Of a stretch of DNA of 64,000 bases, positions 34,935 to 40,386 are shown in pieces; position 1 is the stretch's first letter; each line of letters starts with the position of its first letter. The DNA is from Desulfovirgula sp. (lineage in GTDB: Bacteria > Bacillota > Desulfotomaculia > Desulfotomaculales > Nap2-2B): contig DYES01000028.1 of the NCBI GenBank assembly GCA_020725585.1, positions 1-64,000 of the forward strand, in the 5' to 3' direction. The notes below the pieces were generated by a model that was not told the DNA's origin, ran no database searches, and saw only the letters and a program-made list of their open reading frames with translations. The position numbers and the translations under genes are program-made.

Positions 34935-35765
34935 CTAATACGTAAAAGTAAAGCTGTCCAAAACCACGCTCCGCGGGCGCGATTGCAAAAATTGATTGGG
35001 CACCCAGGATTCAAAGAAAAACAAGGCGCCATTGGTGGGGTCCGCGCCGTTTAAGGCCACCTGTGCGGCGCGCCGGGCCTCCTCGCTGGGGGGGACGTTA
35101 ATCCAGCCGTTTAAAACCGGCTCAAACTGATAGGCCCCCACTTCGTCTACCTGATAAATTACTTCCCGGATGGTGTTGGGAAACAGAGGGCTCAAAACGC
35201 GGTTTAAAACCACGGCCCCCACCGCCACCTTCGTTAAAAAGGACTCCGAATCTGCCTCCGCCGTGATCAGCCTCGCCAACAAATCAAAATCCGACCTGAC
35301 GTAAGGAACGCGCCCGGCCAGCACGCCGCCCTGGCCCGCCTGGGCAGGGCCTGTCCCACCCGGGCCCGAACGGAAAGCAGGAATCGCCAGTACCTGACCG
35401 GGGTAAATAAGCGTTGAGTTTAGCCGGTTAGCCAGCATGATATCTGAATAACTGACCCCAAAAGAACGCCCGATTAAAAAGAGCGTGTCCCCCGGTTGGA
35501 CGGTATAAGAGGTATAGTGCCCCAGTTCCTGTCCTTGCGGGATATACAATTTCTGACCGGGATAAATAAGATCGCCGGCGAGGCCGTTTGTCCTCTTGAT
35601 GGCTTCCACGGAAGAGCCGTACCACTGGCTGAGCAGGTAGAGGGATTCACCGGAACTGACCGTGTGGATGGCGGCAAAAGCGCGGTACGGTAGGAAAAAA
35701 ATGAGGAATAGGCAAGAAATACCAAAGAACAAAAAACGCACAGACAACCTGCCAGATAAACGCAT
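34935..35765 (-). CDS. Spore cortex-lytic/cell wall hydrolase (SleB-type) with two LysM domains
   Basis: Two LysM repeats; DFDLLARLITAEADSESFLTKVAVGAVVLNRV (hydrolase_2); start at ATG 35765 preceded by AAGGAGG. Confidence 0.9.
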   Translation of the reverse strand: MRLSGRLSVRFLFFGISCLFLIFFLPYRAFAAIHTVSSGESLYLLSQWYGSSVEAIKRTNGLAGDLIYPGQKLYIPQGQELGHYTSYTVQPGDTLFLIGRSFGVSYSDIMLANRLNSTLIYPGQVLAIPAFRSGPGGTGPAQAGQGGVLAGRVPYVRSDFDLLARLITAEADSESFLTKVAVGAVVLNRVLSPLFPNTIREVIYQVDEVGAYQFEPVLNGWINVPPSEEARRAAQVALNGADPTNGALFFFESWVPNQFLQSRPRSVVLDSFTFTY

Positions 35766-35989
35766 TTTTCCCCTCCTTGCGGCCTCCGGGGTTAGTTGAC
35801 GGGTTCGGGATGAGGGTTCCCTACCAGGATGCGGCAACACCTGGATTCACCCCAGCGCACACCTTTCCCCCGTACCTGATTTTTTCATCAGGGATTCGGC
35901 CTTTTTTAATTACGTAACAATTATACAACTTTACCGTTTACAGAGACAAGCGGTAATATATACCATTTAAATTGCTGAATATAATAAAC

Positions 35990-36450
35990 TGCGCTGGTTA
36001 AACTATGGATGCAGGGTCCGTAATGGCCGAGCCAAGACTGCTGCAGGGTCGAAAGGCTCTGCAGCAGTCGGCCAAAGGCTGATACCGGGTCGGAAGGGCT
36101 CGGTATCAGCCGGCGGGCAGATCCGTAGATGTTCCGGCAGGCTCTGCAGCAATCCGAAGGATTGCTGCAGGGTCACAAGGGACATCTGCGGGTCGAGCTA
36201 AGATCAGTGCTGGTGCCGGAACGACAACTGGGTTTTGTCTTGGGTCCGCCGTAGTCGAGAGATTACGGCGGGCTCACAAGGTATCTGCACTGGTCGAGCA
36301 CAAGGTCATTATGGGTTTCGTAATGGTCTACGGCAGCCGAAAGGTTGTCGTAGGCTGCGCAGAAATCCGTAATGGCCGGAGCGAAGGTCATTACGGGCTC
36401 CTAACATAGTCCGGCACTCAGATCTTGATTTGAGTGCCGGACTTTGTTTT
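35990..36450 (+). ncRNA. Candidate large structured noncoding RNA (about 460 nt)
   Basis: No supported ORF; dense compensating helices: 36036-36050/36055-36069, 36077-36091/36097-36111, 36123-36135/36179-36191, 36144-36155/36159-36170, 36202-36217/36280-36295, 36246-36256/36261-36271, 36328-36338/36343-36353, 36367-36377/36386-36396; TATAAT at 35980-35985; terminator at the 3' end. Confidence 0.8.
36408..36450 (+). terminator. Intrinsic terminator of the candidate ncRNA
   Basis: AGTCCGGCACTCAGAT CTTG ATTTGAGTGCCGGACT + TTGTTTT; U-tract only on the + strand. Confidence 0.9.
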
Positions 36451-38877: not shown

Positions 38878-40386
38878 TTAGATGATGATGCAGATAAGCC
38901 CTCCGCTTCCTTCGTTCACAATTCTCTGTACCGTTTCCTGCAGCTTGGCCTGGGCGTTCTCCGGCATGCGCTGCAGCTTGTTCTGGATGCTTTCCCGGAC
39001 CAGGTCGTTTACCGACTTCCCGAATATTTCTGACTGCCAGATCTTCTGCGGGTTCTCCTCGAACCCCGAAAGCATGTAGCGGACCAGCTCCTCGCACTGC
39101 TTTTCGGTGCCGATGATGGGGGTAATCTCGGCGGTGATGTCGGCCCTGATCATGTGCACTGACGGCGCGCTGGCCTTTAATTTTACTCCGAACCGGCTGC
39201 CCTGGCGGATCAACTGCGGTTCCTCCAGAGTCATTTCGTCCAGGCTGGGCATAACCACGCCGTAACCGGTTTCCTTTACTTCCCTTAAGGCGGTGGCCAC
39301 TTTATCGTATTCCCGCTTGGCCACGGCAAGTTCCCTCATCAGGCGCAAAAGCTCGTTTTCTGCCTCGACGGCAAAGCCTGTCTCCTCGCTCAACACCCTG
39401 TAGAACAACCCCGGCGGCGCCGTGATTTCGATGGCCGCCACACCGGTGCCCATATCCATTTTGTCCAACCGGACGGTTTCTATAAAATCATAATCGGCGA
39501 GGCGTTCCACCGCGCCCTGCACGTCACGCAGCCGCCGCACATTTTGGATGGTTTGGTGAACCGCGTCTTCGTAGCTTTTTCGCAGCCAGTGCGCGGTCTC
39601 CAGCTCCTCCACCCAGGAAGGCAAAGAAATATTCACTTCGTTGACGGGGAATTCCATGAGCATTTTTTCCAGGATATACAAAACGTCCTGCTGCGTCATT
39701 TGCAGGCAATCAACCGGCAGCACCGGCACGTCGTACTTCTCGCTCAGTTCCTCGGCCAGCTGCACGGTTTCCGGGTCCCGCGCCCGGGCGCTGTTTAAAA
39801 GCACGATAAAGGGGCGGTTGATTTCTTTTAACTCCGCAATTACCCTTTCTTCCCCTTCGATGTAATTTTCCCGCGGAATATCGGTAATGGTCCCGTCGGT
39901 GGTCACCACGATGCCGATTGTCGAATGTTCGGCAATCACTTTCCGGGTGCCGATTTCCGCCGCCTCCTGGAAGGGAATGGGCTCTTCAAACCAGGGAGTG
40001 GAAACCATCCGCGGGCCGTCTTCTTCCTCGTACCCCAGCGCACCCTCCACCCGGTAACCTACGCAATCGACCAGGCGCACCTTTACCTGCAGGCCCTGGT
40101 TGATGTTAATTTCCACCGCTTCGTTGGGAACAAATTTAGGCTCGGTGGTCATCACCGTCTTTCCGGCGCTGCCCTGGGGGAGTTCGTCCTTGGCCCGTTC
40201 CTTGTCGTAAGGATTTTTAATATTGGGAATCACCAGCAATTCCATGAACCGCCTGATAAAGGTGGACTTGCCCGTGCGCACGCATCCGCAGACCCCGATA
40301 TAGATATCCCCACCGGTGCGTTCAGCAATATCGCGGAAAATATCATACTTTTCCATGGGCGTAAATAAGCGCCTCCCTTCTTCCAA
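38878..40386 (-). CDS. spoIVA: Stage IV sporulation protein A
   Basis: YDIFRDIAERTGGDIYIGVCGCVRTGKSTFIRRFMELLVIPNI; ends GSGGLICIII. Confidence 0.97.
   Translation of the reverse strand: MEEGRRLFTPMEKYDIFRDIAERTGGDIYIGVCGCVRTGKSTFIRRFMELLVIPNIKNPYDKERAKDELPQGSAGKTVMTTEPKFVPNEAVEININQGLQVKVRLVDCVGYRVEGALGYEEEDGPRMVSTPWFEEPIPFQEAAEIGTRKVIAEHSTIGIVVTTDGTITDIPRENYIEGEERVIAELKEINRPFIVLLNSARARDPETVQLAEELSEKYDVPVLPVDCLQMTQQDVLYILEKMLMEFPVNEVNISLPSWVEELETAHWLRKSYEDAVHQTIQNVRRLRDVQGAVERLADYDFIETVRLDKMDMGTGVAAIEITAPPGLFYRVLSEETGFAVEAENELLRLMRELAVAKREYDKVATALREVKETGYGVVMPSLDEMTLEEPQLIRQGSRFGVKLKASAPSVHMIRADITAEITPIIGTEKQCEELVRYMLSGFEENPQKIWQSEIFGKSVNDLVRESIQNKLQRMPENAQAKLQETVQRIVNEGSGGLICIII

Follow-up and report, generated by a model that had tools for sequence, protein, structure and literature searches.

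Several structured RNAs of bacteria offer points of comparison for the RNA that we describe here. CsfG is under the control of sigma-F and sigma-G in the forespore of Bacillus (PMC9147052); it was recovered as a 136-nt RNA in an Hfq study of B. subtilis, it has CU-rich terminal loops, and it is called conserved in the Bacillaceae in a figure legend (PMC3574147). Other RNAs form defined assemblies. That is, OLE RNA forms a defined homodimer and a membrane ribonucleoprotein (PMC12286853, PMC9723947), while ROOL and GOLLD assemble into RNA-only cages (PMC12286853). Throughout this paper, the window denotes the whole stretch of DNA that we analysed, namely 64,000 nt of a contig from Desulfovirgula sp. 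(DYES01000028.1).

We find that positions 36010-36402 of the + strand of the window form a structured RNA of about 393 nt, with five arms and a closing stem, and that this RNA belongs to a class of large structured non-coding RNAs of endospore formers that has not been described before. The + strand folds with an energy of -293.4 kcal/mol (z = -18.8), and none of 100 dinucleotide shuffles is equally good. The - strand folds with -187.4 kcal/mol (z = -8.9); this fold is weaker because many of the G.U pairs become A.C on the - strand. No open reading frame of 60 or more amino acids is present on the + strand inside the RNA, in agreement with a sequence-only reading of the same DNA, which had seen no supportable ORF there. 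That reading had proposed an undescribed, ornate and standalone non-coding RNA on the + strand, a proposal that now gains support from the lack of an Rfam match and from strong covariation. For the discrete transcript of about 450 nt that it had named as a further sign, the support is indirect and comes from the conserved promoter at one end and the terminator at the other. The length of about 460 nt that it had assigned requires correction: the structured RNA is real, but its body is about 390 nt, and the remainder is a terminator (Table 1).

The sequence-only reading had suggested an Rfam scan as a check, and the scan with Rfam 15 gives no match at or above a gathering score across the interval. 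In a permissive search of Rfam 15, the best matches over the interval are eukaryotic miRNAs and an intron, all at chance level (E of 2-3). In particular, the RNA falls below the gathering cut-offs of the OLE, ROOL, GOLLD, raiA, 6S, RNase P, tmRNA, SRP and riboswitch families, and in 26 distant loci scanned with Rfam no family covers the RNA. The sole Rfam match in the window is the neighbouring c-di-AMP riboswitch (Table 1). Large ornate non-coding RNAs have precedents in bacteria as a broad kind; for the present class, we found no relative among described RNA families, the literature searched being open-access papers.

Copies of the RNA are widespread. Using 36010-36402 as a BLASTN query against 60 related genomes, we find full-length copies of similar length in many families of the same order, and two to three copies per genome in several relatives. 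From these relatives 48 copies, located with nhmmer, were retrieved. A covariance model of the 3' domain of the RNA (R1) matches 44 of the 60 relatives and, across the phylum, 165 of 399 sampled genomes, which represent 120 of 268 genera. The phylum-wide count is probably a lower bound, since that search used R1 with stricter filters and not the broader model R2. Most of the 59 loci around distant or diverged matches contain a full-length RNA, usually of 390-430 nt. What the sequence-only reading had presented as a candidate at one locus is indeed an RNA, but its membership of a phylum-wide class, as well as its link to sporulation, had been missed. Neither R1 nor R2 detects the RNA in the sibling genera g2-g4 of the same family (genomes G002-G010), which do carry SASP genes; the absence appears to be a loss.

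Some genomes carry copies close to one another, as on contig C9 of G133 (1332 and 3945), contig C41 of G071 (39776 and 55772) and contig C2 of G041 (610 kb and 625 kb; L113 and L118), and copies inside one genome differ in sequence in several cases. A shortened copy (L133:7172-7390), whose genome contains a full-length one as well, keeps positions 72-197 and 282-390 of the query; it seems to be a mini-version or a remnant of the RNA.

The fold itself was learned on order-level copies. RNAalifold applied to 43 of these yields 143 pairs, 101 of which show compensatory changes. The fold was then scored on 51 full-length copies, nearly all of them from other families, which were aligned by sequence only and whose mean pairwise identity is 58%. 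For the same 143 pairs, 95.3% of base-pair cells are canonical in these distant copies, compared with 32-42% when the 3' partner is slid by 1-4 positions and 74% when the 3' letters are shuffled among sequences. Compensatory changes occur at 121 of the 143 pairs in the distant copies, and this is the covariation that the sequence-only reading had proposed to look for.

All of the hairpins listed by that reading are present in the sequence. Two of its helices, when held against the consensus, are rejected as elements of the main fold: the proposed closing helix 36018-36028/36304-36314, which is canonical in 89% of near and 81% of distant cases, far below P1 (Table 1), and the hairpin 36367-36377/36386-36396, at 88% and 77%, respectively. 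Both of these alternative helices arise because the sequences of P1 and P6 resemble each other. Two copies, L137 and L138, lack the P4a hairpin and keep the remainder, which suggests that the P4a strut is dispensable. The window's linker J5/6 (36296-36303) measures 8 nt, one base more than the 7 nt found in almost all other copies.

Table 1. Features of the RNA and its surroundings in the window (near, order-level copies; distant, copies nearly all from other families).
Feature	Position	Strand	Remarks
c-di-AMP (ydaO/yuaA) riboswitch	35766-35911	-	Neighbour, separate from the RNA; Rfam RF00379, 87.1 bits
-35-like element GAATA	35977-35981	+	Putative sigma-F/sigma-G type; position kept in the alignments of 44 near and 47 distant copies
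-10-like element GGTTAAACTA (consensus GGNNANANTA)	35996-36005	+	A few nt upstream of the RNA
P1, closing stem	36014-36028/36386-36400	+	15 bp; canonical in 99.8% (near) and 99.3% (distant)
Arm P2	36036-36050/36055-36069	+	Single 15-bp strut; canonical in 98.1% (near) and 97.1% (distant)
Arm P3	36077-36091/36097-36111	+	Single 15-bp strut; canonical in 97.2% (near) and 96.1% (distant)
Arm P4/P4a	36120-36194	+	P4, 16-bp strut 36120-36135/36179-36194, followed by a 4x4 internal loop
P4a	36140-36154/36160-36174	+	15-bp strut inside arm P4
Arm P5/P5b	36202-36295	+	P5, 16-bp strut 36202-36217/36280-36295
Variable P5 insert	36218-36241	+	Length conserved least of all regions; near 10-50 nt, distant 4-69 nt
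P5b GAGA tetraloop	36257-36260	+	Conserved; from covariation and length analysis
Arm P6/P6a	36304-36377	+	Lower strut 36304-36319/36362-36377
P6a	36324-36338/36343-36357	+	GAAA tetraloop 36339-36342
Intrinsic terminator hairpin and U-rich tail	36403-36448	+	Inverted repeat I2
spoIVA	38881-40386	-	Neighbour, separate from the RNA, three genes away; TIGR02836, E 1e-255

Nine struts of 15-16 bp each, the closing stem included, build the five arms. Per strand, a strut measures 15 or 16 nt in 91-100% of near copies; among distant copies the share is 80-98% for most struts and lowest for P4a (76%). P4 and P6 each have a 4-by-4 internal loop, P5b and P6a each end in a tetraloop that keeps its 4 nt, and the linkers between struts are conserved and GAGCNAAG-type. 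Length varies in loops L2 and L3, less so in L4, and in the P5 insert; despite the divergence of the distant copies, the region 36242-36384 is 142 nt in most of them.

The wobble pairs follow a comparable order. Wobbles (G.U or U.G) are conserved at 60-97% in 22 positions, and these occupy equivalent places in most struts. They fall at pairs 2, 4 and 13 of P1, P4a and P6a, and also of P3 when it is read from the loop side; P2 retains the first two of these wobbles and P5b the last two. In the lower struts P4, P5 and P6, wobbles stand at pairs 3 and 12. By this pattern we ourselves distinguish two types of strut. Since the covariance models match several arms within one RNA, the arms look like diverged copies of a single module.

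Near-identical motifs repeated in most struts would provide many binding sites, and several genomes hold two to three copies of the RNA. Both features could suit a decoy of the CsrB or 6S kind, which would titrate RNA polymerase or an RNA-binding protein of the forespore. In CsrB-type decoys, however, the repeated sites are short loop motifs, whereas the repeat here is a rigid helix of exact length, and the 6S family is not matched; we regard a decoy as unlikely. We consider it reasonably probable that the RNA is a multivalent scaffold, made in the forespore and acting in trans, either as a docking platform for protein or as an RNA-only oligomer. Scaffolding is suggested because what is conserved is the length of the struts and the placing of the wobbles, not the open loops. 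The conserved wobbles and lengths could instead serve packing within the molecule.

The sequences upstream of the RNA resemble a promoter of the forespore type. We scored the 60 nt upstream of each copy against sigma consensus sequences of Bacillus subtilis. In the 44 near copies, sigF scores z = 16.3 and sigG 13.7, whereas sigma-A and sigma-E reach 3.4 and 3.5, respectively, and sigma-K and sigma-H stay between about -1 and 1. The 47 distant copies give z = 18.6 for sigF, 15.6 for sigG and 1.8 for sigA, and the distance from promoter to RNA is nearly fixed in near and distant copies alike. The window's own -35 and -10 elements match the sigma-F/sigma-G type imperfectly. SASP genes are expected targets of sigma-G, and 29 such genes of the same order are preceded by [AG]CATA-N17/18-CATAMTA. 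Judged by its sequence, the promoter of the RNA belongs to the same class as these SASP promoters, and the promoter sequences appear to fit sigma-F and sigma-G control of the CsfG type. A sigma-A TATAAT at 35980-35985, which the sequence-only reading had taken for the promoter, is rejected as the -10, since the aligned copies place the conserved -10 further downstream (Table 1). At the other end, an intrinsic terminator lies downstream of 41 of the 48 near copies and 20 of the 59 distant ones, as against 1% of shuffles.

Long inverted repeats, as well as the several copies in some genomes, might also be expected of a DNA element, such as a cruciform, the end of a mobile element, or a repeat. 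The wobbles argue otherwise, as the sequence-only reading had already held of the G-U pairs: they are specific to one strand, where they are kept as G.U, and on the other strand they would be A.C mismatches. The promoter and terminator are also fixed. Moreover, neither plasmids nor phages match the RNA, and an exact pattern search of viral contigs is negative; a mobile, phage or plasmid origin is rejected on the lack of a match. A DNA element is extremely improbable and effectively excluded.

The two genes that flank the RNA in the window lie on the strand opposite to it. Among relatives the neighbours vary and are often on the opposite strand (spoIVA, ileS, thrB and many unrelated genes): spoIVA adjoins the RNA in seven or eight loci and ileS is a neighbour in several, while among relatives of thrB outside the genus (searched in L017-L029) there is no RNA near thrB. 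A Pfam tally of the neighbourhoods yields no coherent partner gene. The RNA stands alone, with its own promoter-like sequence and terminator in a varied context, the terminators being weaker in distant copies. Since the neighbouring genes vary, the RNA should act in trans. The recurrence of spoIVA nearby in part of the order would be consistent with a cis-acting leader or 3' element for thrB, the cell-wall hydrolase or spoIVA; the opposite orientation of the window's flanking genes, the RNA's own promoter and terminator, and the differing neighbours all speak against it. Given that gene context varies, we reject cis regulation of these genes as very improbable, and effectively excluded.

Several smaller observations concern the same surroundings. 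The riboswitch in the window precedes a LysM/cell-wall-hydrolase gene (34935-35840) and is transcribed away from the RNA. In one relative (G026), a weak match to the RNA lies 10 bp from spoIVA. The first upstream ORF on the same strand encodes 108 aa in L103, L108 and L115, and 92 aa in L110 and L117; representatives of these small upstream proteins match no Pfam or NCBIfam family.

The distribution of the RNA ties it to sporulation. The gene spoIVA is present in 339 of the 399 sampled genomes and in 162 of the 165 carriers of the RNA, and the three exceptions are genomes that are 61-80% complete; the association is significant when phylogeny is ignored (Fisher p = 1.5e-11). Within the window's phylum, which is the only phylum sampled, the RNA is restricted to endospore formers. 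The sole relative that lacks SASP genes (G055) is without the RNA as well. No match is seen in about half of the genomes that have spoIVA, nor in g2-g4, so that the RNA is not essential for sporulation in general.

An apparent sigma-F/sigma-G control, as for CsfG (PMC9147052), together with a location in trans, might also point to a forespore regulatory RNA that pairs with mRNAs, as has been proposed for CsfG, only larger and more structured. Such an RNA would be expected to expose a seed; there is no obvious conserved open seed here except in the junction linkers, and it is strut geometry that is conserved. The conserved hairpin loops, GAGA in P5b and GAAA in P6a, are GNRA loops, the remaining loops differ among copies in both length and sequence, and the CU-rich loop motif described for CsfG is absent (PMC3574147). 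The RNA is not, that is, a short sRNA with CU-rich terminal loops, and we find mRNA pairing decidedly unlikely as its role.

We return to the scaffold, for which the following course of events may be envisaged. In the developing spore, RNA polymerase with sigma-F, sigma-G or both would begin to transcribe the RNA no more than a few nt from P1 and would stop at the terminator that closes at 36448. The transcript would fold into five arms of rigid 15-16 bp struts, two of the arms being capped by GNRA loops, and would act in trans in the forespore or the spore core. The repeated strut motif would then offer the surface on which a protein, in several copies, or further molecules of the RNA could dock. 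As a tentative possibility, the RNA might itself be a natural frame structure: with struts of equal length, and with wobbles that offer docking sites at intervals of about one turn of the helix, copies might join, by themselves or on a protein of the spore, to form a closed RNA particle. Such a particle would be taken into the forespore and would remain there through dormancy.

So much covariation, across 120 genera of one sampled phylum and with no Rfam entry, is rare for a structured RNA. The apparent forespore promoter and the near-exclusive presence in sporulators tie the RNA to a classical developmental programme, for which, to our knowledge, a large RNA component has not been described; dormant spores might rely on a previously unlisted RNA machine. 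In addition, struts that hardly vary in length point to a geometry that would be unusual for an RNA.

It remains to compare the RNA with the systems considered at the outset. Like CsfG, it is standalone, apparently under sigma-F/sigma-G control in the forespore, and found in endospore formers only; CsfG, however, is small and has CU-rich loops, whereas the present RNA has five arms, a length of about 390 nt, and GNRA or variable loops. With OLE it shares a large and ornate form and an occurrence in anaerobic or extremophilic Bacillota, but OLE is about 600 nt and the present RNA has no Rfam match. Its gene neighbourhood, too, differs from that of OLE. The raiA-motif RNA (ModT) is likewise a large structured non-coding RNA that is widespread in Bacillota (PMC11706538). 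Its Rfam family is, however, not matched by the present RNA. The raiA-motif RNA does have an Rfam entry. ROOL and GOLLD resemble our RNA in being large and ornate, with one variable linker in an otherwise conserved architecture (PMC12286853). They differ from it in the layout of their arms, and the present RNA has no Rfam match. ROOL and GOLLD are also larger, and often linked to phages. CsfG, OLE, ROOL, GOLLD and the raiA-motif RNA are thus comparable to the present RNA and not the same, and it is OLE, ROOL and GOLLD that are nearest to it in style.
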